Shown: piece after piece, positions 12,909-36,538 of the stretch
Position numbering within the stretch: the stretch's first letter is position 1
Layout: each line of letters opens with the position of its first letter
Virus record (IMG/VR): IMGVR_UViG_3300032285_000306
Coordinates: 1-36,538 of that record
DNA length: 36,538 bases
From: a virus
Direction: 5' to 3' (one strand)
The notes under the pieces: generated by a model
Database searches by the model: none
Told to the model about the DNA's origin: nothing
What the model saw: the letters and a program-made list of their open reading frames with translations, nothing else
Translations under genes and position numbers: made by a program

Positions 12909-13262
12909 ATGAACCTTGAAGCCTTAAAGCCCAACACAGAGTACGTCCCTGTCGAGCATGAGTACATTGAGTTCGCAGAGGTTGACGACATCTGGGTTCG
13001 CGCTTACTCAATTAAAAAGGCAGAGAGCATTGCCGGACAGCATGTCCATACGCACGATCATATCACTCTTGTTTCGCGTGGAACGGTTGAGGCTTGGCAA
13101 GATGGCGCGTTGATGGGTGTGTATGTAGCACCTGCAATTATCAAAGTACAAGCAGGCAAACAGCACGCATTTAAAGCACTTACTGACGATGTAGTCTTTT
13201 GTTGTTTACACAACTTGCGCGGCACGGGTCTTGAGTCGCCAGAAATTATGGAAGGGGCGTAA
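12909..13262 (+). CDS. Cupin-fold protein
   Basis: This 117-residue protein has a cupin-like first motif with clustered histidines (H45, H47, H49 and H51 in GQHVHTHDHITLVSRG). The second motif has VQAGKQHAFKAL, with His86. These would form a single metal site in a small beta-barrel. The cupin fold is used for sugar isomerases, dioxygenases and sensors, and the substrate cannot be told from this sequence. It has a clear GAGGAAAG ribosome site and ends 2 bases before the next gene. Its place between fiber and ejection genes suggests a structural or accessory role rather than a standard metabolic one. Confidence 0.75.
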   Translation: MNLEALKPNTEYVPVEHEYIEFAEVDDIWVRAYSIKKAESIAGQHVHTHDHITLVSRGTVEAWQDGALMGVYVAPAIIKVQAGKQHAFKALTDDVVFCCLHNLRGTGLESPEIMEGA

Positions 13263-17922: not shown

Positions 17923-20900
17923 ATGGCGGTAGTTAACATCCCTAACGTGGGATCGGTGAACTTTCCTGATTCAATGTCGCAAGCTGACATTATCAACGCA
18001 ATTGAAAATGATATTCTGCCTAATTACGCAGGGGCTGCTGCTGCACCACAAAATGCAGTACAAACACCAGTAGCTGCCGCACCTGCGGTTACTGCGCCTA
18101 CACCGGTAACTGAGACACCTACGCCAGAAGAATACTATGACCCTATGACGGGCGCTCCCGTAGGGAACATATCGTCTGCTACCCCGCAAAAAACACCAAA
18201 GTTGCCCGGGTCTGTTATGGCTGGGGTTAATGAAAATTTGCCACCAACGCAAACACCGCAAATTGATCCGGCGGTAAAAAATATTTACGATGCCGCTTCA
18301 CAAGAAGAACGAGTAAAGCTTGCAAAATCTGACATAAGATTTGCTGAAGTAGCTAAGTACTACCGTGACCTAGACATAAAAAACAAAGAGTATTTAGAAA
18401 CTAATCCGTCAGGTGCGATTAACCCATACATGGCGGACGATCGACTTGAGTATCGGGTTAGGGATTACATACGACAAGGTATGTCCCCTGAGGTTGCTTT
18501 AAATACGGCTAAACAAGATGCGCTTGAAGGCAAACCTTCGCACGTTTCAACAGCCGGGGAAGTTAAAGAAGCACCTGAAGAGTACATGCTAAAACGCGGT
18601 TATGCGTTAGACCCTAAGGCTCCGGGCTATGAGACCGCACTTAAGTTAGCGCAACGCACCGCACTAAAATCATTGTATGGGTTTGCTCAAGCAGGTGGTG
18701 GGCAACAAAAGTTTTTAGCCGAAGCTATTCTTGGAATTGACCCAAGTGATACAAATAAAACACTTGACTACCTTAGTAAACATACAGAAGCGTTAGGTGA
18801 TCCAACATCAAAACCTTTAGCTCTTGTTGAAAACGCGGTCAGCTCAATTATTCAACAACTACCCGGGTTACTTACTGGTACAGAAGCGTTGTCTTTAGGG
18901 TCAATGTTTTTGCAAAGTTTTGGGCAAACGTATGACGATAGCCGCAGAAAAAATCTTGGTATTGGTGAAAGCACTTTTAGGTCTGCAGCTTATGGCGCAC
19001 TTGAAGTATTAGGGGAAAAACTTGGTTTAGGCGATACTTTAAAAGGTATTAAGGCTGCTTCTCGTGGCATCCCTGACAAAGAGCTAATCGAACATTTTGC
19101 TAAGTCATTAGCTAAAGAAATACCCGGTGAACAATTAACTTATGCGGGCCAATTTGGTATTGACAAAGCATTTGCTCTAAATCCAGAAGCTGGCATCAAA
19201 CAATTTTTAAATGGTGCTGTAGATACGCTGGCTGCTACTGTTGCGCAAGGCGGCATAATGATGGGTGGCGCTGCTGCTATCAACAAAGCCAATCAAGTTT
19301 ACAGTGATGCAGCGGGTACTAGACGCGCTGAAGATGCAGCAGAAACAGCAAAACAAAATGCTTTGCAAAAAGCGCAAGATATGTTTAAGTTTACGCCTAA
19401 ACAAAAAGGCGAGACTGTTGAGCAACTTACTAGCGTAACACCACCTGAGCAACCTGAAGAAGTAAAACCTCTTTCTGATCAGGGCGTCATTTGGCTTGAG
19501 CCTACTGAACAAACTGCAACTGAACCTTACATCGACCCTGAAACGGGCGAAGTTATGGAGAAACGCCCTGAACCAAAAATTGGTAGTGGGGGCAATGAAG
19601 CAGTTATACAGCGTCGTGCTGCCGAAATAGCAAGTGAGCTTGGTGTACCCAAGAATATTGCGTTGGCTATGGCGCAACGGGAAGCTTCAGAGAGGGGACA
19701 AAATGTCGAGCGAGCGCCTGCAAAACCTGACACTGGACGAGTTGAGCCAAGCATTTCTGTGCTTGAGTCAGAAGCACCCGCCGCCGAAGTCACTACACCA
19801 CCTGATACTACAGGACTGGCTGGACCTGTCGAGACTCCTGAACCATCTGTTGCAGGAAAAGGAGAAGAGCCTGCTGCACTAGGTGAGATACCTACGCTTA
19901 CTGAGCGCCCACCTGCTGCTGAGGAAACGCCTAAAACAGAAAAAGAACAGTTACAAGCTTTGCTTGCGTATGATGAAAATCGCTTAGCAACTTTACCTAA
20001 AACTACTGCTAATAATGGTGAGCGGTTTCACCTTGAAGCATCAATCAAGGACATCAAAGAAAAACTTGCGGCTCAAGAACCCACCGCTGAAACTGTTACC
20101 GCTAAAGAACCCACTGCTGAGACCCCTGCCACCCCTGTTGAGCAAGCACAAACTAAATTAGCCGATGCAGAGACTGCAGTGGCTGAGGCAACGACGCCTG
20201 AAGAAAAGACAGAAGCCACCAAACAGCGCAACGTGGCGCGGCAAGAGTTGAAGAAAGCTGAAGCTGCTGCACCTGTTGAAAAAACACTTGCTGCTACCAC
20301 TACAACCGAAGTAGCTAAGCCTAAGCGTGGTCGTCCACCTAAGCCCAAAGCTGAAGTCACTACGCCTGTTGCCCAAGAAAACAAACCTAAGCGCGGGCGT
20401 AAACCTAACCCCCCATTGCCTCCTGATCTTCAGGCTGCTGCTGATAAGACACGTAAAAAGAATCAGGAAAAAGCAATCTATGCTGGGCGCGATGTAGACA
20501 AACTTATTAAGTTCCTCAGTACTGAGTTCGATCCGGCTAACCACAAATCACCTGAGTTCACAAAAGTGGCAACGCAGGGGTTGCAGAATGTGCGCCGTGA
20601 GTACATATACAAACTTAACGAGTTTGCTAATAAGCATCGTGGTAAACCAAACTCAGGCGGCAAGGCAAAAGACTTTCTAGCCAACAGCGACAAGATTACG
20701 CTTAAAGAGCGTTCTGATCTTGCTGAGCGTTTGCAATTTGAAAAGAGCCGTAGACCATCTCCTGCACAAACAAAGTCGGCGGGTACACCTGTACCAGCTT
20801 TCTACAAATTTACAACTGCTACTCAAGCGATCAATCACATCATCCGCAATGGTACGCCGTTTGAGCGGGCACTAGCTGCACGCCTTAAGCCATTTGTATC

Positions 20901-23900
20901 TGATGTGCGGCTTATCATTGCCAAGGATGAGGACTCAACGCACCCAGCAATTGCTGAGATGATTGAGGACCCCGAGAACGATGTTTCAGCATCAGGCGTG
21001 TATAGCTCTGTGCAGTTTGGGGATAAGTTCCATAGAAACATTGTTTTGCGTGGTGAAAACTTTGGCGACGACCCCGGACAACAGGGCGTTAACAACATTA
21101 TCTTTTTGCATGAAGCATTGCATGCCGCAACCGAAGCCAAGATTGATCAATGGCAGACGTTAACAAATGCTGGTAAACCTGTACCACCCGAGCTGAAAAA
21201 AGTTATCGACGAGTTGTTCGGTACGATGGCTGATGCGCAGGTGCAGTACGAGAAGATGAAAGCCTCAGGTGAGTTCATATCAGTTAACTTGCGCCATAAG
21301 TTTGAAAGCAAAGAAAACAACGGGCTTGATATTCTCAACGACCTGAAAGAGTTTGTTGCTTACGGTATGACCGACCCCGAGATTCAACAATTTCTGTTGG
21401 ATACACCCGGCGCTGTGCGTAAAGATGCAGCAACAGGCTTCTGGAAAAACTTGTTCAATCGTTTTGTCAACAACTTGCGCAAGATGTTTGACATGGATGA
21501 CAAGCACCAGTCGGCGCTTCAAGACCTTATCCTTATTACAGAAGGCATACTGCAAGAACAAGAGTTTGAGCCTGCTTACTCAGCCAATACAGAGCTAAAC
21601 GCATCTGTAGCAAAAGCAGATAAAAACTTAACTAAGATTGCTGCGTCTAATAACCAACAAGATGTAATTGATGGTATTCAAGGTAACGTACCAACTCATG
21701 ACTTTGGGCTATACGACAAGTTAATGAAATCTAGGTTCCCCGCGATGGGTAGTGGGTTTATAAGCAAATCTTTAGGTAAATTACAAACGTCTGACATTAT
21801 AAGGTGGCAAGGCGATAATATACCCGCGCTTAAACGCATAGATGAACTTGTTGAGCGCATGGTTGGATCGCGTATGAACATGGAAAAAGCTTTTGCCAAA
21901 AAAGCCGATAAGCTGGCAAAATTCATGCGCTACTCAAGAAGATCGTCGCGGCAAGCGTTAAGTGATGCTATGCACTTAGCGCGTTTAGAAAGTGTAAGCC
22001 CTACAGAGTTTTCAGATCGTCAAGATGCGCTTGCTAATGATTTGCGTGTAGTTGAATTAACTAAACTGGCAAATGACCCAAGAACAAACCCTGACGAACT
22101 TAATGCCATCGACGACAAAATAAAAAAACGAGAAGCCAGCATCAACAAAGTATTTGATGCTTGGGAAAGGTTGGGGCAAGTTAAAGATGGGCAAGAGATG
22201 TACCGTATGGTGCGTAAGTTTTATAAAGATATGAACGTTTTGCATCGTACGTTGCTTGATGAACGTATAGATCGTTTGAATCTATCGGGGGCAGTTAACG
22301 ACCCAACTACCCCCAAGGGTAAGTTAATGTTGTCCGTGCGTCGTATGTTTGAGGGGAGTGATTATGCTGGTGTAGATGAATACTTCCCGTTTATGCGACA
22401 TGGTGAGTATTGGCTGCGCGTAAACGGCCCAGAAGGTCGTGAGTTTTACATGTTTGATAACGGCTCTAAGCGTAATGACTTTTTACATATTCGCGCAGCG
22501 CAGCTTGGCCTTGACGTAAAAGACCCTAAAGCATTTGACGCTGGTGACACTAGCAATGAGTTACGCAATAAATATAGTGGTGAAAGCAAAATACTTGCGG
22601 AGATGTTTGACGTAATTAACCAGCACTTTGATAACACTAAAATACCAAACGCTGCAAATATGAGCGAGGCAGAGCTTAAAAATGCGCAAGAAACCCAAGC
22701 TCAAGCGTTGGAGCAATTAAAAGACTCGTTGTATCAAACGTATTTGATGACAATGCCTGAGCAAAGTTACCGCAAACAATTTTTGCATGCTGAAAACGTA
22801 ACTGGTTTTAGTTCAGACGTGTTTCGTAATTTTAAAATGTCTGCAACAAAACTGGCTTCACAAGCGTCTAAGCTGGCGTATTCTGATTTGATCAATATGG
22901 AAGTGCAAAGTGGATATGATTCACTAGAAGGTATGCCTGCACTTGAACGCGCTAAGATGCGCTTGTTTGTTGATGAAGTTGGTTTTCGAGCAAACGCTGA
23001 GATTAACCCGCAAGAAGATAATATTTACGCTACAGGTCTTAACCAGCTTGGTTATTTTTGGATGTTGTCAGGTGTTGCTACCGCAATTACTCAAACTACT
23101 TCAATACCTATAATGGTAATGCCAATCTTAAACGACGAGTATGGTTACGGTAAATCGGCAGCTAAATTTACTAAATACATGCAGTTATGGAAATCTGTAG
23201 GGGTAACTGAAAATGGGCCAAATGGCGATACAAATTGGTTTGCGCCATCTATGGGTACTTCAAAATTAGTTCAAAGAGACCCCATACTTAAACGTGCTTT
23301 TGCAGAAGCTTCTGAACGTGGCATCTTATCTCAGACTTCAATTTCTGTGCTTACAAACCGTAACCGCACACCCGCTAATGCTTACTCTAATATTCCCAGT
23401 GCTTTTTTACGGGCTACTAAAATAGGCATGTCAGCGTTGTTTAATGGCGCAGAACGTATGACCCGCGAAATGACGTACATGATGACGTTTGAGTTGGAGT
23501 ATGCAAAAACAAAAGACTTTGATAAGTCAGTGCAAAAAGCAATTGATGTGGTGCAAGAAACACTTGGTCGTTACGACAACTTTAATCGCCCACGTATTTT
23601 GCGCAACGTTTTAGGACGTACTGTTGGGCAGTTTAAAATGTATGCCGTCAACATGACGTCGTTTTTTATGCGCAACGGATACAACATTTTTAAAGGTATG
23701 TATGAGGGCATTACAATAGGTAAGGCTGATCTATTACTTTCTTCTATGCACCGCTTAGGTGGCGTACTAACTATGGCGGCGTTGTTTGGTGGTATTACTG
23801 CACTACCGTTGTATACCACAGTGTGCGCAGTAATTGATATGTATATTGATTTTTTTGGGGATGACGAAGAAAAGAAACGGCGTATTGCTCGTAACCCCTA

Positions 23901-24726
23901 CACAGCAGAAAGTGCTGACTTGCGTTTTCGTTATGAATTTTTACCTGAATGGTTTGGCCCGATGAGGTATCAAACAACCAAAGGGCTTGACGGTAGAGAA
24001 CATACTCTAGCGTCCATATTGGAAAAAGGCGCTGTATCTGAACTTACTGACATTAACGTAGGTTCACGTACGTCGTTTGATGGTATGTGGTGGCGCGGCG
24101 GAAAACATGGCGACACCGAAAGAGAAAAAGTTGAAAACTTTTTAATTGCAAACCTTGGTGCGGGCGCTGAAACTATTTTAAAAATCCCCGAAGCAATGAC
24201 TGAGTGGAGAAACGGCAATATTTTACGGGGGTTTGAAAAAATATTACCAGCTATGCTCAAAAACGTTGTGACTGAAGAACGGTTACGTAGAGAAGGGGCT
24301 AAGACACCGTCAGGCAAACTCATAATGAGCAAAGAAGAATTTTCTTCGTTTAGCTTGGCGATGCAAAGTCTTGGCTTTCAAAGTACGGCATTAGCTCGAG
24401 TCCAAGAAAATGGTATTAAGTTACAAGAAGAAATTGTGTTGGCTGCAGAGCAACGTGCGAACATACTTAAACGGCTCGGTACGACAATGCTCAGTGAAGA
24501 TGCTACGGATAAAGACGTTGAGCGTGTATTTAATAAGATCGACGAGTATAACGATCGTTACGTTGCGCTTAAACATTTGCGCATAGACCCAAATACTATT
24601 AAAGAAGTAGTAGATCGGGCAAAAGGCAAAGAAAAATACATGTTCAGAGGCATGTACATACGCAAAGAAGATTTGCCGTACCTACTTGAGTTGCGTGATG
24701 TTGCCGAACCCGGGCAAAGAAAATAA
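17923..24726 (+). CDS. Giant ejection-type virion protein with zincin motif and AT hooks
   Basis: At 2267 residues this is the largest gene here. The N-terminus carries VNFPDSMSQADIINAIENDI, a start common in large phage ejection proteins. Residues about 500-840 are Pro/Glu/Thr-rich and probably disordered, with two AT-hook-like motifs (PKRGRPPKPK at 800-809, PKRGRKP at 822-828). HEALH at 1063-1067 plus E1143 (LKEFVAYGMTDPE) forms a zincin-type metalloprotease signature. Hydrophobic segments near 1712-1735 and 1946-1975 sit in a long helical C-terminal half resembling large polyvalent phage proteins (LPD38-like, tentative). It is likely packaged and ejected with DNA. The start follows an AGGTGGAG site. 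Confidence 0.75.
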   Translation: MAVVNIPNVGSVNFPDSMSQADIINAIENDILPNYAGAAAAPQNAVQTPVAAAPAVTAPTPVTETPTPEEYYDPMTGAPVGNISSATPQKTPKLPGSVMAGVNENLPPTQTPQIDPAVKNIYDAASQEERVKLAKSDIRFAEVAKYYRDLDIKNKEYLETNPSGAINPYMADDRLEYRVRDYIRQGMSPEVALNTAKQDALEGKPSHVSTAGEVKEAPEEYMLKRGYALDPKAPGYETALKLAQRTALKSLYGFAQAGGGQQKFLAEAILGIDPSDTNKTLDYLSKHTEALGDPTSKPLALVENAVSSIIQQLPGLLTGTEALSLGSMFLQSFGQTYDDSRRKNLGIGESTFRSAAYGALEVLGEKLGLGDTLKGIKAASRGIPDKELIEHFAKSLAKEIPGEQLTYAGQFGIDKAFALNPEAGIKQFLNGAVDTLAATVAQGGIMMGGAAAINKANQVYSDAAGTRRAEDAAETAKQNALQKAQDMFKFTPKQKGETVEQLTSVTPPEQPEEVKPLSDQGVIWLEPTEQTATEPYIDPETGEVMEKRPEPKIGSGGNEAVIQRRAAEIASELGVPKNIALAMAQREASERGQNVERAPAKPDTGRVEPSISVLESEAPAAEVTTPPDTTGLAGPVETPEPSVAGKGEEPAALGEIPTLTERPPAAEETPKTEKEQLQALLAYDENRLATLPKTTANNGERFHLEASIKDIKEKLAAQEPTAETVTAKEPTAETPATPVEQAQTKLADAETAVAEATTPEEKTEATKQRNVARQELKKAEAAAPVEKTLAATTTTEVAKPKRGRPPKPKAEVTTPVAQENKPKRGRKPNPPLPPDLQAAADKTRKKNQEKAIYAGRDVDKLIKFLSTEFDPANHKSPEFTKVATQGLQNVRREYIYKLNEFANKHRGKPNSGGKAKDFLANSDKITLKERSDLAERLQFEKSRRPSPAQTKSAGTPVPAFYKFTTATQAINHIIRNGTPFERALAARLKPFVSDVRLIIAKDEDSTHPAIAEMIEDPENDVSASGVYSSVQFGDKFHRNIVLRGENFGDDPGQQGVNNIIFLHEALHAATEAKIDQWQTLTNAGKPVPPELKKVIDELFGTMADAQVQYEKMKASGEFISVNLRHKFESKENNGLDILNDLKEFVAYGMTDPEIQQFLLDTPGAVRKDAATGFWKNLFNRFVNNLRKMFDMDDKHQSALQDLILITEGILQEQEFEPAYSANTELNASVAKADKNLTKIAASNNQQDVIDGIQGNVPTHDFGLYDKLMKSRFPAMGSGFISKSLGKLQTSDIIRWQGDNIPALKRIDELVERMVGSRMNMEKAFAKKADKLAKFMRYSRRSSRQALSDAMHLARLESVSPTEFSDRQDALANDLRVVELTKLANDPRTNPDELNAIDDKIKKREASINKVFDAWERLGQVKDGQEMYRMVRKFYKDMNVLHRTLLDERIDRLNLSGAVNDPTTPKGKLMLSVRRMFEGSDYAGVDEYFPFMRHGEYWLRVNGPEGREFYMFDNGSKRNDFLHIRAAQLGLDVKDPKAFDAGDTSNELRNKYSGESKILAEMFDVINQHFDNTKIPNAANMSEAELKNAQETQAQALEQLKDSLYQTYLMTMPEQSYRKQFLHAENVTGFSSDVFRNFKMSATKLASQASKLAYSDLINMEVQSGYDSLEGMPALERAKMRLFVDEVGFRANAEINPQEDNIYATGLNQLGYFWMLSGVATAITQTTSIPIMVMPILNDEYGYGKSAAKFTKYMQLWKSVGVTENGPNGDTNWFAPSMGTSKLVQRDPILKRAFAEASERGILSQTSISVLTNRNRTPANAYSNIPSAFLRATKIGMSALFNGAERMTREMTYMMTFELEYAKTKDFDKSVQKAIDVVQETLGRYDNFNRPRILRNVLGRTVGQFKMYAVNMTSFFMRNGYNIFKGMYEGITIGKADLLLSSMHRLGGVLTMAALFGGITALPLYTTVCAVIDMYIDFFGDDEEKKRRIARNPYTAESADLRFRYEFLPEWFGPMRYQTTKGLDGREHTLASILEKGAVSELTDINVGSRTSFDGMWWRGGKHGDTEREKVENFLIANLGAGAETILKIPEAMTEWRNGNILRGFEKILPAMLKNVVTEERLRREGAKTPSGKLIMSKEEFSSFSLAMQSLGFQSTALARVQENGIKLQEEIVLAAEQRANILKRLGTTMLSEDATDKDVERVFNKIDEYNDRYVALKHLRIDPNTIKEVVDRAKGKEKYMFRGMYIRKEDLPYLLELRDVAEPGQRK

Positions 24727-30915: not shown

Positions 30916-31199
30916 TTCTTTTTGCGTTCTCTCGCGCTAACCTCAGACACTAAATTGTGCTTTGAGTCTCGTTTAAATGACCGGTTGCTGTTCGCATCTT
31001 CAACTCGTATACCGTCTTTGAGCGAACCGCCTTTGTCGATCGCCTTCACATGGGCAGCATCCTTGCCATCACCCTTGTGCAGCTTGCCTTCTTTCATCAG
31101 CTTTCTGCGGGCTTTGTTGCGCTCGGCACGCTCTTTAATATGTTCGGGTTTACCCTGATAGGTAGCGTACTCTTGTTTGTAGTCACGGGGCTTCGTCAT
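30912..31199 (-). CDS. HNH-like small basic protein
   Basis: This 95-residue, very Lys/Arg-rich protein contains RRKLMKEGKLHKGDGKDAAH and then VKAIDKGGS, followed by GIRVEDANSNRSF. The order (H at about 50, then a loop with GG, then N-R-S) resembles an HNH fold in which the usual DH pair appears as AAH. It could be an active nuclease or a degraded one acting only in DNA binding. It has a GGAG site before the start at 31199, overlaps the gene before it by 17 bp and the helicase by 4 bp. Its placement suggests a role with the helicase and the nuclease nearby. Confidence 0.55.
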   Translation of the reverse strand: MTKPRDYKQEYATYQGKPEHIKERAERNKARRKLMKEGKLHKGDGKDAAHVKAIDKGGSLKDGIRVEDANSNRSFKRDSKHNLVSEVSARERKKK

Positions 31200-31527
31200 C
31201 TTTAATCTCCATCGGTCTGATACCGGTAATCATGTGAGTGTTAAGTTCTGCACTTGTCAGTTTAAACTCTTCAGGCGTAGATTCCCATAGCGGCTTGCGC
31301 TCGTCTTTGTCCACGTTTTTAAGCATCTGCCCGACCTTAATGGCAATTTCGAGCAACATCTCTTCCTTCTCGCGCTTGATGGCTTCCTGAATCTGCTTAC
31401 CAATTATGTTGATGACGGTGCGCTCAACATTTTTACCAATAAGGTTGTTTACTCGCTCTTGCAACTTGCCTTCAAGCAGCAGCATTGAGTCGATGTTTTG
31501 TTGATCTTCCATTTGATCGGGGGTCAT
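31183..31527 (-). CDS. Helical protein, unknown function
   Basis: I chose the ATG at 31527 (114 residues, MTPDQMEDQQNID) over one at 31599, because AAAGGAAAAG precedes it and the ATG overlaps the upstream stop (ATGA). The protein is predominantly helical: LLLEGKLQERVNNLIGKNVE, then KQIQEAIKREKEEMLLEI, with an acidic tail. No known domain was recognised. It lies between the Cas4-like nuclease and the HNH-like gene, so a role in DNA processing is possible from context only. Confidence 0.65.
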   Translation of the reverse strand: MTPDQMEDQQNIDSMLLLEGKLQERVNNLIGKNVERTVINIIGKQIQEAIKREKEEMLLEIAIKVGQMLKNVDKDERKPLWESTPEEFKLTSAELNTHMITGIRPMEIKDDEAP

Positions 31528-32195
31528 TTTCTTTTCCTTTGATGTACACACGTATCCACAGGGCAAAAACCGCACAGTGGGCCTGAAACTGGATTCCACA
31601 CCTTGTTGCCCAACGCCGCTTCAAGCCGGTCAAGCTCAGGCTTCATGGTCTCAAGGTACTTGGTTTTATAAAAGCTGTGATGCTCTTTCTTAACAAACTC
31701 GCCACTCACCACAAACGCCAACGCCGACTTGATCTCAATCACCTGCGGGAAGTGCAGAAACACCCCTGCCGCCAACAGATCAAGCTGCTTAGTATCCGCA
31801 TACTTTGCATTTTTACTGGTCTTGTAGTCAGCTAAGTAAGCCCTGCCACCATCAATGATTACCAAGTCAGCAATGCCATGCCACCAGTAGTCGGGTGCAT
31901 CAAACGCACAAGCCACAAACTTACCCTTGCGGATAGCAATGCCCATCTCAAGCTCACAATGCTTCTCACCCTTGATGTTTTTGAACGCCTCAAGTATCGG
32001 GCGCATATAGGCAAACTTCTCAGGCACATCCACACCATCACGGATGTAGTCCTCAGCCGCCTTATGCACGAGCGTGCCGTAGTGCGCAGCTTCACCCGCC
32101 TCATCAACAACGTCTTTGGCAATCTTTAAGTGGTAATACTTCTTCGGGCATTGCTGAAATGTTTTCAGGCTGCTGTACGACCATTGGATGCTCAT
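31524..32195 (-). CDS. Cas4/RecB-like PD-(D/E)XK nuclease with Fe-S cysteines
   Basis: This 223-residue protein starts with WSYSSLKTFQQCPKKYYH, typical of the RecB-type PD-(D/E)XK family. His44, Asp110 (HGIADLVI), Asp123-Tyr-Lys125 (LADYKTSK) and Gln137 fit the catalytic core. Cys16 plus a C-terminal trio (C208, C211, C216 in CGFCPVDTC) match the four-cysteine iron-sulfur site of Cas4 and AddB. It should be a single-strand exonuclease or end-processing enzyme. No cas1 or cas2 genes or CRISPR repeats are in the window, so a phage recombination or replication role is more likely. It has an AGGAAAAAG site and overlaps its neighbour by 4 bp. Confidence 0.85.
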   Translation of the reverse strand: MSIQWSYSSLKTFQQCPKKYYHLKIAKDVVDEAGEAAHYGTLVHKAAEDYIRDGVDVPEKFAYMRPILEAFKNIKGEKHCELEMGIAIRKGKFVACAFDAPDYWWHGIADLVIIDGGRAYLADYKTSKNAKYADTKQLDLLAAGVFLHFPQVIEIKSALAFVVSGEFVKKEHHSFYKTKYLETMKPELDRLEAALGNKVWNPVSGPLCGFCPVDTCVHQRKRK

Positions 32196-32476
32196 TTCTT
32201 TTTCCTGTAAGCGGCAACAAAAAACTTAGCGGCATCACAATCGCTTAGGTTCTGCCAATAGTAAGACCCGTCACACGCAAGCTGAATGCACAAACCTTCA
32301 TGGTTATCAGTAAATGAAACAATAGGCTCAGGCTTGGCTAACGCTTCTTTGAGTGCTGCTGCCGCTGCGTTCACAAGGTCTTCGTCAAATGTTTTGTATG
32401 ACTCTTCCTCGCTATCGTAGTCCCAGTTGCAGGTGTTCAAAGCATCCAACGCTTGCTGCATGATTGCTCTGCTCAT
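32192..32476 (-). CDS. Small conserved protein, unknown function
   Basis: This 94-residue acidic protein begins MSRAIMQQALDALNTCNWDY and has a helix with LVNAAAAALKEALAKPEP. It then has a Cys/Trp-containing beta segment (GLCIQLACDGSYYWQNL) and a basic end. Small proteins of this start are common in phages and prophages, but I cannot assign a function. Both ends overlap neighbours by 4 bp, so it is a genuine operon member. Confidence 0.6.
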   Translation of the reverse strand: MSRAIMQQALDALNTCNWDYDSEEESYKTFDEDLVNAAAAALKEALAKPEPIVSFTDNHEGLCIQLACDGSYYWQNLSDCDAAKFFVAAYRKKK

Positions 32477-32736
32477 TCTTCTGTCGTCTCAATTAGTTTT
32501 TGTAAGTAGTGCTGTGCTTTACGCAAGTCCTGCACACCGTTTTTGTCCTTCCACCTACTGACGTACTTGATGATGTTGCCTTCCAGATAGCCAAGGTTGT
32601 TTGCAACGATGTAGTCCCATGGCTGAATGTGCTTGTCTTTGTAATGCTCACCACCAACCTGCACAGCGTTTGCGTCTTGTTTTGTCATGTCTTGCTCTTG
32701 CTTGATAAAGTCGTTAATTGTTAGTGGAGGATACAT
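32473..32736 (-). CDS. DUF3310-like protein
   Basis: I chose the ATG at 32736 (87 residues, MYPPLTINDF) with GAGG 8 bases upstream; a start at 32799 would overlap the previous gene by 86 bases, and one at 32688 has a weaker site. The core GGEHYKDKHIQPWDYIVAN and LEGNIIKYVSRWKDKNG, then DLRKAQHYLQKLIE, matches DUF3310, a family including T7 gp1.7-type proteins linked to nucleotide metabolism. In T7 the related protein phosphorylates dGMP and dTMP; this activity here is inferred. It probably helps the replication machinery by adjusting nucleotide supply. Confidence 0.8.
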   Translation of the reverse strand: MYPPLTINDFIKQEQDMTKQDANAVQVGGEHYKDKHIQPWDYIVANNLGYLEGNIIKYVSRWKDKNGVQDLRKAQHYLQKLIETTEE

Positions 32737-32941
32737 TCGTTGACCTCTTACGTTTAGGTTTAATAGCTGTAATGCCCTCTTCAACTTCGGGTTCAGCATA
32801 CTTGGCTTTGATCATTGCATCTGCGGTTTCGTATGCAAGGGCTGATACCGTGTCCGGTCTAAACCCAAACGATGCACGCCCGTTCAATATGCCCATCAAC
32901 GCCAACCCTGCAAACAAATCTCTTAGGTCTTCATCATTCAT
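32714..32941 (-). CDS. Small conserved phage protein
   Basis: This 75-residue protein starts MNDEDLRDLFAGLALMGILN, followed by SALAYETADAMIKAKYAEPE and a Lys/Ser-rich tail. This start (DLRDxFA) and the ALAYETADAMI helix are familiar from many phage and prophage proteins without known function. It has an AAAGGAAAA site, overlaps the next gene by 23 bp and the previous by 8 bp. Confidence 0.65.
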   Translation of the reverse strand: MNDEDLRDLFAGLALMGILNGRASFGFRPDTVSALAYETADAMIKAKYAEPEVEEGITAIKPKRKRSTNVSSTNN

Positions 32942-33254
32942 TAAATTTTTCCTTTAGTTCTTCAGTACGTTTTTCATACTCTATATCAAATATTTGATTC
33001 AGCCCGGGCAACAACTCTTTGAGTAACTGCGCACGACTAATCGCCCCGCCCTTACGCTCTAAGTCATACGCTGTAAGCAAGCGGCGCATTACCTCTTTAG
33101 TAAAAACTCTTGGTTTGTATATTGGTGCTTCGGGGGTATCAAGGTAGACGTTATGCATTGCTAACAAGTTAGTCCAACGCCCAAAATCAATAAACTCTTT
33201 AGGGTTAGTTTTCCTGCGCTCAAGCAGCAACGCAACGCCTTTATTTATCGCCAT
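32934..33254 (-). CDS. Polymerase-flanking paralog family, member A
   Basis: This 106-residue protein starts with the shared motif AINKGVALLLERRKTNPKEF and continues with GRWTNLLAMHNVYL and FTKEVMRRLL. The same order (NKG, LL-x-R, NPKEF or HPEEF, R-W, and F-T-x-x-V-M-x-x-L-L) is found in three further genes here. A charged helical tail follows (RAQLLKELLPGLNQIFDIEY). A good AAGGAG site precedes the start. No catalytic motif is obvious; a polymerase- or DNA-associated role is suggested only by location. Confidence 0.7.
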   Translation of the reverse strand: MAINKGVALLLERRKTNPKEFIDFGRWTNLLAMHNVYLDTPEAPIYKPRVFTKEVMRRLLTAYDLERKGGAISRAQLLKELLPGLNQIFDIEYEKRTEELKEKFNE

Positions 33255-33564
33255 ATAAGCTCCTTCGTAGGTTTGCTGCCATGACTTCTTTAGTTTCTTG
33301 CATAGCCTTGGCTAACGCTTTCGTATAGTCTTTCGACACTTGGCGCATTGGGTCATGCTCACCTTGAAGCAACTCATTCATGACCGCTTCGGTAAAGCTT
33401 TCGCCTTTTTTACCTGTTGGGTAAGTACGTGTATCATTTAGGTTAACTTTGTAATCCCTAAATAAACCACTCCACCGCATAAGTTCAAACCGATCAAGCT
33501 GAGGTACAAACTCTTGGGGATGTGTTTCACGTCTTGCCAACAATATTTCAACGCCTTTGTTCAT
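33241..33564 (-). CDS. Polymerase-flanking paralog family, member B
   Basis: This 107-residue protein begins MNKGVEILLARRETHPQEF if the ATG at 33564 is used; alignment with its relatives supports that over a start four codons earlier at 33576. It continues with RWSGLFRDY and, after a charged loop, SFTEAVMNELLQ. The C-terminus is helical (AKAMQETKEVMAANLRRSL). It overlaps member A by 14 bp and member C by 4 bp (ATGA). Tandem related genes with diverged middles suggest old duplication followed by separate roles. Confidence 0.7.
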   Translation of the reverse strand: MNKGVEILLARRETHPQEFVPQLDRFELMRWSGLFRDYKVNLNDTRTYPTGKKGESFTEAVMNELLQGEHDPMRQVSKDYTKALAKAMQETKEVMAANLRRSLYGDK

Positions 33565-33866
33565 TTGTTTTTCCATAAGTTTGCGTATGCTTTTGCATAG
33601 TCTTCGGGTTTGATACCCATTCTCTTCGCCATGAGTAACTGAGTACCAGTAAGCTTCACAGTTGTCTTTGGCTCTTCAAGGTCACTTCCAGTAAGTATCC
33701 TGTGTATAACCTGCCTATTAAACTCCCGTGGGTTTTTGGGGTTATGTTCCTTGTCCAACGGATACGCATCAAACGCAATTAGCAAAGAAGTCCAACGCCC
33801 CATTGAACAAAACTCTTCAGGGTGAATCTTCTTACGTTCAAGCAGCAACTTAACGCCTTTGTTCAT
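33561..33866 (-). CDS. Polymerase-flanking paralog family, member C
   Basis: I chose the ATG at 33866 (101 residues, MNKGVKLLLERKKIHPEEF) over one at 33950. It has a GGGGAG site, overlaps the polymerase stop by one base (TGATG), and aligns with its relatives at residue 1. The shared parts are GRWTSLL and FNRQVIHRIL. The C-terminal end (TGTQLLMAKRMGIKPEDYAK) differs from members A and B and could be a small helical domain. Coupling to the polymerase stop suggests co-production with it. Confidence 0.7.
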   Translation of the reverse strand: MNKGVKLLLERKKIHPEEFCSMGRWTSLLIAFDAYPLDKEHNPKNPREFNRQVIHRILTGSDLEEPKTTVKLTGTQLLMAKRMGIKPEDYAKAYANLWKNK

Positions 33867-35692
33867 CAGCACTCCCCATAGCTTTTGCCAATACCGCTTT
33901 CGCAATTTAGCGGCAGCTCTAATGCCCACGTAGGGCGCATGCGCATACACATCTCGACATACTCTTGCGCAACCTCGGCTTCATCTTCAGGCGCAACGAT
34001 TGCAATTGCATCATGCACAGTCATTACCACTTTGTACTTCTTCGCTATGCGTAACATCTGCTCGCCAATTATGATGCGAGCCAAGCCTTGACACAGGTTC
34101 TCCACGACCTTACCGCCGTATATCTTGTTGGGTATGACTGCCTTACCCTTCTTGGTGTCATACACATACTCATCTTTCCCATCTTCCTTGGTTTGCTTAC
34201 GCAGGTTTGGGTACTTAATGTGCAGACCATTAGGCATACGTATGCCTTTCTTACCATCAACGACCAACACACCTTCACGTCCTAAATCACACGTTTTGTC
34301 CTCTGCGATAGCGTCAAGTGCGCGACCGGCTTGTCGCCATAGCTTCGTAATTGATGGGTATGTGTCGCGGTAAACTTGGATGATTCGAGCCGCTTCAGCT
34401 TCTTCAATGTCCACCCCAAAAGTTTTAAGTTGCATCTTGAATTTTGCAGCGCCCATACCATAGCCCGCACCAAGAATCGTTGTCTTGCCAACAAAGCGTT
34501 CGTCTTTAGTAATTTCTGATTCCGCCTTGCCATAGATAGCAGAAGCCATGATTTTGTATACATCTTTGCCTTCCTCAAATGCTTGCACTAAGTCATCCTG
34601 CCCTGCCAACCACGCCACCGTACGCGCCTCAATCTGTGATGAGTCTGAGTCAATCATCATGTAGCCTTCGGGTGCGCGGATAGCATGCTTCAAAGGTGAT
34701 TTACGCCCAAGGTTCTGCATATTCACTTTGTCATCGCCACCCCAACGCCCTGTGTGTGCTGCGTAATAGCGTAGTGGTATGGGCAGTCTGCCACGCGAAG
34801 AAATGCTGATCAACCGCTGAGTCCTTGTCTCTTCTTGCGTAGACTTAAGCCCTAGACGGGCCGCAACTAAAGCTTGAACAAAAAAGTTTTCATGCTCGGC
34901 TAGTTCTTTGAACCCCTCATCGTTTTTAGCAAACGCCCATGTTTCTTTACCTGTTGTTGGACTGATCTTGCGTGGGGGTGTCACATTAAGTTGTAGTAAT
35001 ACCTCTGCAAACTTATCGTTGCTCATTAACGCTTCACGGTTTTCCATCCCCGCTGAGTCAAGCAAATCTGCTTTAGCTTGTTTTTGATGTTCTAGATGTG
35101 CAAACAAAGCCGTTGGGCTAAGCTCAAGTACCGGCTCACTAAACATCCGTATGGTCAGGTCAATCAGCCGCAGCTCAAGCGCAGGAAACTCAGGCGACAT
35201 ACAGTTAAACAACTTGTACGTTAGCTCAACGTCGTTGACGCAATACTCCCCGTACTCAGCTAGGTCGTAGGGCGTGAAATCTAGCCGGTGCTTGCCTAAC
35301 GCTTGCGCTACCGCAGTACCTTTCTGACCCAAGCCATAATGCTGCGTAAGCTTGTCGAGGCTTCCACCCACTTCTGTGCTGTGTATAGCCCTTGCCATAC
35401 TAAGCGTATCAAGCCAACCACGAGGGTGAATGCCAAAATACCAACTAAGAATAGAGGCATCAAACATAGCATTGTGAGCAAGTGCAAGATTGTCGTCAAA
35501 GTCGAAACTTTCGAGAAATTTTTTGGTGTCTGAGTATGTGCCTGAGAACCATTGCGCTTCACCATCGTTCACCTTTACGCTTACGCCTATCACTTCAAAC
35601 TCTGCACCACGTACGTACTCTTCGGTAGTCAGTTTGCTCAAGCTATACGTCTGCGAGTAGTACGTTTCAAAATCAAGTGTAATGATGTTCAT
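33866..35692 (-). CDS. DNA polymerase I-like (family A) with 3'-5' exonuclease
   Basis: This 608-residue family A polymerase begins with an intact exonuclease domain: D7-x-E9 in LDFETY, N74 and D78 in NAMFDAS, and Y150-x-x-x-D154 in YCVNDVELT. Polymerase motif A is DSSQIEAR (D350-R357), motif B is R399-x-x-x-K403-x-x-x-L407-x-x-x-Y411, and motif C is VHDAIAI (D561). L407 is the equivalent of E. coli Pol I residue 762, where Phe or Tyr is usual. Ala562 replaces the usual Glu of motif C. There is no 5'-3' exonuclease domain. It is the replicative polymerase of the phage, working with the primase-helicase. Confidence 0.93.
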   Translation of the reverse strand: MNIITLDFETYYSQTYSLSKLTTEEYVRGAEFEVIGVSVKVNDGEAQWFSGTYSDTKKFLESFDFDDNLALAHNAMFDASILSWYFGIHPRGWLDTLSMARAIHSTEVGGSLDKLTQHYGLGQKGTAVAQALGKHRLDFTPYDLAEYGEYCVNDVELTYKLFNCMSPEFPALELRLIDLTIRMFSEPVLELSPTALFAHLEHQKQAKADLLDSAGMENREALMSNDKFAEVLLQLNVTPPRKISPTTGKETWAFAKNDEGFKELAEHENFFVQALVAARLGLKSTQEETRTQRLISISSRGRLPIPLRYYAAHTGRWGGDDKVNMQNLGRKSPLKHAIRAPEGYMMIDSDSSQIEARTVAWLAGQDDLVQAFEEGKDVYKIMASAIYGKAESEITKDERFVGKTTILGAGYGMGAAKFKMQLKTFGVDIEEAEAARIIQVYRDTYPSITKLWRQAGRALDAIAEDKTCDLGREGVLVVDGKKGIRMPNGLHIKYPNLRKQTKEDGKDEYVYDTKKGKAVIPNKIYGGKVVENLCQGLARIIIGEQMLRIAKKYKVVMTVHDAIAIVAPEDEAEVAQEYVEMCMRMRPTWALELPLNCESGIGKSYGEC

Positions 35693-35695
35693 GGC

Positions 35696-36199
35696 TTAGC
35701 CTTTGAAAGTACCGTTTTTTGTAAACGTATGCGTACCTGTTGGGGTCTTGACGACTACTGAGCCGCCACCGCCACCGCCACCTGAACCAACAATACCGCT
35801 ACCGCCGCCTCCACCGCCCGCTACTACAGGCATTGGTATTGTCTGCCACACTTGGTTGCCGGTATAAACTTCATACTGGTCTTTAGTGTGGTTAAAGCGC
35901 AGTGAACCGACAGCAGGTTGTGGGCGTATAGCCCTGTCAATCTCTTCTTCACCCTCACGAATAAGCAACTCTTTCATTACCGCTTCGGTAAAGTCGTCAC
36001 GCCTTTTGTTTGCGTACCATTCGTTTAAACCCATCTTGGCTTCTTCCCATACTTCCTTCTCTTCCTCAGTCATGTAATTAGAAAAGTTTTCCATCATGTT
36101 TGTCCACCTAGACGCAATGTGGCTACCAGTTTCCCAACCAAAAAACTCTTCAGGGTGTGTTTTAGTACGTGCAATGAGTATCTCAAATCCTCGGTTCAT
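35696..36199 (-). CDS. Paralog family member D with fused Gly-rich tail-like C-terminus
   Basis: This 167-residue protein starts MNRGFEILIARTKTHPEEF, then RWTNMMENFSNYM and DDFTEAVMKELL, matching the family members downstream of the polymerase. From residue 97 a different region follows: GSLRFNHTKDQYEVYTGN and WQTIP, a long glycine run (residues 128-147) and TPTGTHTFTKNGTF. That part resembles fiber or other virion-protein ends rather than replication proteins. Its start overlaps the preceding stop by 4 bp (ATGA), and its stop lies 3 bases from the polymerase start. A fusion or domain-capture event is likely. Confidence 0.7.
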   Translation of the reverse strand: MNRGFEILIARTKTHPEEFFGWETGSHIASRWTNMMENFSNYMTEEEKEVWEEAKMGLNEWYANKRRDDFTEAVMKELLIREGEEEIDRAIRPQPAVGSLRFNHTKDQYEVYTGNQVWQTIPMPVVAGGGGGGSGIVGSGGGGGGGSVVVKTPTGTHTFTKNGTFKG

Positions 36200-36538
36200 T
36201 TGAATCCCAACCCTTTAGCCATTTTGCTTAGCATGCTTTCAGACATAGGCTGCGGGTGTGAGCCTTGGCTAGACTGATACGGGTTAGCGTTCATCAAATT
36301 TTGACCACTCCGCGCTATCGCTTCCTGATGTGCTGCTATGTGTTGAGCGTGGGCTACCGCCTGATTCTGTGGTGATAGTTGATTGATTGCATTATGGTAC
36401 TGGTGCGTGTCTACATCGTACAGACCTTGCAAGCCGTACGTATTTATGTCGTTGTTGGCTGTGCTGACACGTAATTTTTGTTGCCCAAACTGCGTTTGCA
36501 GGGATTGCATCTTTGCTCGTGCATCGGCTTCTGATGAT
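36196..36538 (-). CDS. Gln/His-rich protein, 5'-truncated by window edge
   Basis: The frame is open to the window end, so the start is missing; the Met at 36510 is likely internal because the codons before it read SSEADARAK. The visible 114 residues are rich in Gln, Ala, Asn and His (YHNAINQLSPQNQAVAHAQH, then AAHQEAIARSGQNLMNANPY) and end MLSKMAKGLGFK. I do not recognise a family. It overlaps the next gene by 4 bp and is therefore part of the same operon. Confidence 0.6.
   Translation of the reverse strand, partial: SSEADARAKMQSLQTQFGQQKLRVSTANNDINTYGLQGLYDVDTHQYHNAINQLSPQNQAVAHAQHIAAHQEAIARSGQNLMNANPYQSSQGSHPQPMSESMLSKMAKGLGFK

Follow-up and report, generated by a model that had tools for sequence, protein, structure and literature searches.

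Small proteins encoded beside a phage family-A DNA polymerase gene carry tails resembling segments of capsid, scaffold and tail-fibre proteins

How does a segment typical of tail fibres come to stand in a protein encoded beside a DNA polymerase gene? The question arises from the minus strand of a 36,538-base virus record (IMG/VR IMGVR_UViG_3300032285_000306; the whole record is hereafter the window), which carries, with replication genes, an array of small paralogues in the order E (cut by the window end), D, polymerase, C, B and A (Table 1). A sequence-only reading had described member D as a small-family N-terminus joined to a fibre-like, glycine-rich tail; the gene directly precedes the polymerase gene and lies outside any virion gene cluster. 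The structural-looking genes of the window, judged by eye, are on the plus strand, and a small cupin-like protein, also named by eye, is encoded among them (12909-13262). A 2267-aa protein on the same strand (17923-24726) matches in its C-terminal part a DarB-like antirestriction PHROG (1e-28), though an unknown-function PHROG matches it more strongly.

Table 1. Members and segments of the polymerase-side array, with positions in the window
Feature	Position	Strand	Description
Member E	36196..36537	(-)	Cut by window end; capsid-like LRVSTANNDIN at about 36436-36510
Member D	35696..36199	(-)	167 aa; N-module (residues 1-90) + fibre-type tail
D residues 86-124	35828..35944	(-)	Predicted three-stranded sheet of fibre/TSP4 beta-prism type; AIRPQPAVGSLRFN..QYEVYTG..VW
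D residues 125-167	35699..35827	(-)	VVAGGG start, glycine linker, fibre-type C-terminal hairpin VVVKTPTGTHTFTKNGTFKG
Family-A DNA polymerase	33866..35692	(-)	Start 3 nt after D stop; PF00476 8.6e-37, phrog_17 3e-94
Member C	33561..33866	(-)	N-module + putative scaffold C-terminus tail (tail 33564-33665)
Member B	33241..33576	(-)	N-module + tail matching capsid segment 100-124 (tail about 33271-33345)
Member A	32934..33254	(-)	N-module + tail matching capsid N-terminus 2-36 (tail about 32943-33044)

Member D carries the described N-terminus, followed by GSLRFNHTKDQYEVY (its G being residue 98), two glycine runs and a THTFTKNGTFKG end, and the gene recurs at 100% identity in a second contig (L001). 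Comparison with five other aligned orthologues (L002, L003 and L008-L010) places the GSLRF strand in the window and L001 only; the orthologues that lack it carry a different segment in its place, and L010 additionally lacks the glycine run and the end. Two orthologue lineages (L002/L003 and L008/L009) retain the end itself, GGSVVVKTPxGTHTFTKxG, at dN/dS 0.08-0.17, and this end is, on the few changes that these 19 codons contain, under purifying selection. Conservation of this kind argues against the possibility, raised with the original description, that the tail is a frameshift artefact.

Resemblance to fibres is evident from several queries. When a 346-aa glycine-rich fibre of another phage (L197) was searched against 20 records, its one match in the record of the window was D (E 7.6e-11), with further matches in two records, G001 and G009. 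By blastp, D residues 92-114 align to this fibre with 15/24 identities (E 1e-7), pairing D AIRPQPAVGSLRFNHTKDQYEVYTG with fibre AQRPASPATGSMRYNTTTNQYEVYSG; after the strand segment, both proteins continue with VVAGGG, glycine runs, a VVV/VVI strand and an HTFTxxGTFT-like very C-terminus. One of the two further records, G001, contains a small-family member and also encodes such a fibre (31115-34819, 1235 aa), which a D tail matches at E 1.6e-5 and whose C-terminus the D orthologue of L008 matches at 4e-4. An HMM of 91 fibre motifs, from which family members were excluded, recovers D at E 1.1e-7 and a paralogue (L012:3456-4010) at 2e-6, the next of 2167 sequences being a shuffled tail at 3.5; this result is optimistic, because the fibres were collected with a pattern drawn partly from D (at least 124 matches, 121 outside the family, at 119 loci). 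A shifted version of the pattern gave no matches and, because it carried an extra T/S constraint, serves as a rough control only. The last 12 residues are identical to fibre C-termini at 7/12 positions in the window and at 9/12 in the L008 orthologue; the ends of 546 other ORFs reach at most 6, and 2 of 20000 shuffles reach 7. The L197 fibre is itself encoded in a cluster whose other ORFs include glycine-rich or fibre-like ones and one resembling lysozyme, all named by eye.

Other searches returned less. Pfam PF21722 scores D at 17.2 bits, below its cut-off of 24.3; the best PHROGs match has an E of 0.0027; D is missed by an HMM built on the final 44 residues of fibres; and a whole-fibre HMM scores family tails no better than shuffles. 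These results would suit a chance or compositional resemblance of glycine-rich, low-complexity tails, an explanation that we consider very improbable in light of the 91-motif HMM, the last-12 identities and the L197 matches, together with the tail-versus-shuffle counts and the capsid search of the window record described below; for A, C and D it is already contradicted. The L197 and G001 matches, with the collinear VVAGGG, glycine runs, strand and C-terminal end, indicate at the sequence level that the D tail is the C-terminal part of a fibre, shortened from about 295 to about 78 residues with the same elements in the same order. The first description of this 167-aa protein is thus borne out; there is support for its suggestion of a captured structural domain, which can be widened, since other paralogues in the window carry capsid and scaffold pieces.

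The strand segment was profiled from 25 rows (D, its L012 paralogue and 23 pattern-gathered ORFs, L197 among them). Against the PDB, this profile gives three sequences with E up to 1, all of them CBA120 TSP4 (E 0.005-0.007); a profile match placing the tail in a non-virion family would have spoken against the fibre reading, and no such match was obtained. TSP4 is not among the 60 of 115 matches listed for a phmmer search with whole D, which are mostly glycine-linker matches. Structure prediction of the tail had also been proposed. An AF2 model of full D (97 family rows) is helical over residues 1-90, with block-mean pLDDT of 75-97 to residue 80 and 60 for 81-90, and places a hairpin at 148-159, but residues 92-145 fall below pLDDT 50; modelled with fibre rows, residues 86-124 alone form three strands (mean pLDDT 83). 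The top five Foldseek matches of this shorter model are TSP4 chains, with weak E of 0.8-1.5 and rmsd 1.7-1.8 over 28 columns, and VIA-align gives Z 2.0 against TSP4; the trimerisation domain of collagen XVIII and a phage tropism determinant are further matches, all at Z <=3. The three-strand segment also occurs in ORFs of about 203-220 aa (L109, L115, L134, L139, L160, L194), where it occupies about the last 28-32 residues, and in the 112-aa proteins of L170, L189 and L190.

The N-module of D, by comparison, defines a family of its own. Members were gathered from viral contigs with the D alignment, a module alignment (best 80 of 156), L012 (best 80 of 90) and an HMM, giving 189 ORFs at 123 loci and 144 distinct proteins; the loci were fetched by their N-module with limited flanks and, owing to near-identical contigs among L033-L042 and L079-L085, are not all independent. 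A family-A polymerase gene is present on 119 of the 123 loci, and of the remaining four, three end at most 2 bases from the family stop and one (L040) ends 675 bases past it. The family stop lies within -60..+20 nt of the polymerase start in 82 of the 119, the nearest being 131-2013 nt upstream in the other 37. D fits the family as defined, by its module and by a same-strand polymerase gene nearby. A capsid gene was located in eight of the fetched records, at a distance of 18-41 kb from the family genes. Tails are hypervariable and differ between relatives; many end in short conserved motifs (KTLFGKLFNY, PIAGVTQTL, GTTWGRLQV; e.g., L062, L226, L070), and a KTLFGKLFNY-ending tail, searched elsewhere, found family genes only, in 7/16 records.

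No PHROG matched more than 3/97 family members at E<=0.01, and no Pfam family matched more than 1/97 at E<=0.05. Foldseek searches of the N-module fold against the PDB and BFVD gave no match at E<=0.001 (the best in BFVD, 0.007, is an uncharacterised phage protein), and the best VIA-align Z was 3.2. Two single queries did not find the family in 50,697 phage records, and an HMM recovered no member near the polymerase genes of three cultured relatives that had been selected among 2046 records (best E 0.57). Among GTDB genomes, 1/27 candidate stretches contained the family: L295, a contig of 5 kb that was binned in a Legionella MAG, looks like phage DNA and holds a family member and a polymerase gene. 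Searches of one open-access library gave no title on polymerase-linked proteins with capsid, scaffold or fibre tails. From this literature search and the Pfam and PHROGs results, it is our judgement that a polymerase-linked array with virion-protein tails would be a new kind of system.

A total of 110 tail clusters were searched by blastp-short against the other proteins of eleven family-bearing phage records and the window. At E<=1e-3, 11 matches were obtained with real tails and 1 with 550 shuffled ones. Four of the 11 pair family members with each other, three E genes and L012 all matching the cut E copy, and one reflects glutamine-rich low complexity; in the remaining six, A (twice) and B find capsid, C finds scaffold and D (twice) finds fibre. 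At E<=1e-4, 8/110 real tails match, three of them E against its own cut copy, and 0/550 shuffled. The capsid targets are the major head protein phrog_371, encoded in G001 in the same cluster as portal and terminase; the target of the C tail is phrog_28737, an unknown-function PHROG that we call scaffold on account of its acidic composition and its position between portal and capsid genes. Neither a capsid nor a scaffold gene was found in the window record itself, and the donor proteins compared are those of other phages. An HMM of eight capsid proteins, at E<=0.01, matches 7/111 tails, 0/1110 shuffles and 0/543 C-termini of other ORFs; a scaffold HMM, at the same threshold, matches 2/111 tails and none of the shuffles or control C-termini.

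The clearest capsid-type tail is that of A. Searched against the window record, the capsid protein has one match, the A tail (E 6.6e-9; 32922-33044, running past the A stop), and capsid residues 2-36 are matched in five sequences at capsid-HMM iE 6e-10 to 1e-8 (6e-10 for A in L001); these residues are all that A covers, with no complete coat domain. The B tail shares 13/18 identities with capsid (E 1e-5; HMM iE 0.0016), and, among the 144 distinct full proteins, B-type tails match capsid 100-141 in nine sequences at iE 0.001-0.12. Scoring the same 144 proteins in full gave other segments: 48-72 (one sequence, 0.078), 133-161 (one, 0.11) and 272-301 (six, best 0.0055). Several capsid matches weaken under full-protein scoring (L012:3456 to iE 0.11; L068 to 0.078 and 0.45), and A alone gives strong matches on this measure. 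E, 207 aa when complete (L001:3605-4228), and L012 match capsid 201-228 at HMM iE 0.32 and 0.19, respectively. The pairwise score of E against capsid 200-223, a segment chosen after the HMM match, is reached by 0/1000 shuffles, as is that of the L012 tail against capsid; E thus probably carries about residues 201-225, though the match is weak. For three D orthologues with DGVxLxSVSxP, the score against capsid is reached by 2, 3 and 27 of 1000 shuffles. A KxEG motif resembling capsid 51-67 and drawn after seeing the tails occurs in 7/111 tails, 0/1110 shuffles and 0/543 controls. Tails of the KPTRILTSAQITKDALKIL type were considered as coat-protein pieces, an origin that found no support: their capsid score is reached by 158/1000 shuffles, tblastn matches appear at E 5-7 only, Pfam gives no match, and one of three scanned in PHROGs has weak matches (best 0.026), to families without an assigned function. 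For GNVGIGT-like tails (L254, L276), the evidence is no more than suggestive.

The C tail is matched by the scaffold HMM at iE 6e-4 (the same protein, in L001), 1.4e-5 (L002, L003) and 0.0075 (L010), and matches ORFs of 319-328 aa in 6/20 records (E 5e-5 to 0.011). It covers only about positions 308-336 of the 341 in the profile and is not a full-length scaffold. Two phages that are cultured or named each encode, a short distance ahead of the capsid gene, a protein whose C-terminus the C tail matches at E 0.2-0.3. The scaffold-type tail also weakly matches (E 0.02) the start of the N-module of a family gene, G021:C1:11028-11102 (L051), which is not a scaffold; the resemblance hints that the first helices of the N-module may be similar to the scaffold C-terminus, and may be chance. 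Across the family, a source is identified for 12/111 tail clusters by strict and 21/111 by lenient scoring, leaving 99 and 90, respectively, without one. Sequence comparison thus shows an array of small paralogues beside a polymerase gene, each with a conserved, predicted helical N-module and a different short tail, those in the window corresponding to capsid 2-36 (A), capsid 100-124 (B), a putative scaffold C-terminus (C) and a miniature fibre C-terminal domain (D).

Substitution patterns bear on how such tails persist. Compared with capsid genes, the A tail has pS 0.70-0.95 and pN 0.11-0.18 over 19 codons, and the B tail pS 0.97-1.01 and pN 0.21-0.23 over 18 codons. With synonymous sites close to saturation and the peptides nonetheless retained, neither tail is a recent DNA copy of a capsid gene, and both look kept at the protein level. 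Pairs among four A orthologues differ by 1-3.5 non-synonymous and 0.5-2 synonymous changes, numbers that are too small to demonstrate recent constraint on the A segment. The tails might be recombination scars: fragments of structural genes would accumulate in frame ahead of the polymerase gene, and any flexible extension would be acceptable to the N-module. The hypervariable tails, the predicted disorder of D residues 92-145 and the A orthologues' lack of clear constraint among themselves would fit; the purifying selection on the D end (dN/dS 0.08-0.17, 19 codons) and the retention of the A and B peptides against saturated capsid synonymous sites make scars unlikely.

The same retention of A and B could be expected of immune decoys, early-made pieces of virion proteins that occupy host sensors which capsid or other late proteins would otherwise activate. 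Defences that respond to capsid exist, such as Lit/Gol and CapRel, and the paralogues in the window sample several virion proteins, one piece each, with tails that differ between relatives. Against this, a fragment may activate a sensor instead of blocking it, early expression is assumed from gene order, and no defence system or host was identified; we hold decoys to be improbable. The sequence-only reading had also considered that the small family might itself be a virion or ejected component, its members riding in the particle by means of their capsid, scaffold or fibre tails. With its scaffold C-terminus, C could indeed be targeted to particles, as could A and B with their capsid pieces, but the array shares the minus strand with the replication genes while the structural-looking genes are on the plus strand, polymerase accompanies the family at 119/123 loci, the capsid gene is 18-41 kb distant in eight records, and the fibre tail of D does not target capsid, so we regard virion cargo as quite unlikely.

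Over decoys, scars and virion cargo, we prefer, tentatively, adaptors between replication and assembly, whose tails would mimic virion peptides and dock on assembly partners. The peptides could bind the partners of virion proteins (the capsid lattice, scaffold or fibre trimers), while the N-module, made together with polymerase, would couple replication to assembly or ride onto the procapsid. D may form a trimer through its beta-prism sheet, with N-modules held on a flexible glycine linker, and the array as a whole would be made early, as assumed from gene order. More generally, and with somewhat less confidence, phages may keep a modular adaptor array on the polymerase side, each member showing a distinct peptide from the capsid, scaffold or fibre of the phage itself, that controls assembly partners in step with replication or blinds host sensors. 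Pieces of fibre, capsid and scaffold can in any case become tails of an unrelated protein family. If the tails act as mimics, they would constitute a virion-peptide repertoire beside replication genes, and would either tie genome replication directly to particle assembly at the molecular level or represent counter-defence of a new form; they would also supply a short list of peptide-partner pairs.

Among known systems, single-stranded DNA binding proteins likewise combine a folded N-terminal part, a flexible linker and a short C-terminal interaction peptide, a likeness in general plan rather than one traced in sequence. The major capsid protein phrog_371 shares segments 2-36 with A, 100-124 with B and probably about 201-225 with E, which in these proteins are short segments behind an unrelated module. 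C ends in the C-terminal VKLTxxQxxxAKRxGxxxExYA of the putative scaffold (phrog_28737; HTVC023P gp37, 353 aa), whose long acidic N-terminal part is absent from C, a protein encoded beside the polymerase.

In the baseplate anchor domain of CBA120 TSP4 (7REJ, 7RFO, 7RFV), SVRYNPDSDEFEGYYENGGWLSLGGGG aligns with the fibre/D segment profile; in the excerpted account of that structure, an antiparallel three-stranded sheet from each subunit packs into a trimeric beta-prism II and is followed by Gly76-79 (PMC8825819). On that account, TSP4 and D would both have a three-stranded sheet and then a glycine linker, whereas TSP4, a tailspike, has a triple beta-helix preceding its sheet and D has a helical N-module and is encoded beside a polymerase gene. 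There is likeness also to the glycine-rich tail fibres (PF21722, phrog_2295; L197, G001 31115-34819), of which Pam3 gp24 appears, from the excerpted text, to be a further example (PMC9608196). These share with D the succession RP-PA-G-x-RYN..EVY..W, VVAGGG, glycine run, strand and HTFTxSGT[FY]T end, which in the fibres extends over about 295 aa and in D over about 78, the glycine-rich part being mostly gone and the Pfam score below cut-off.
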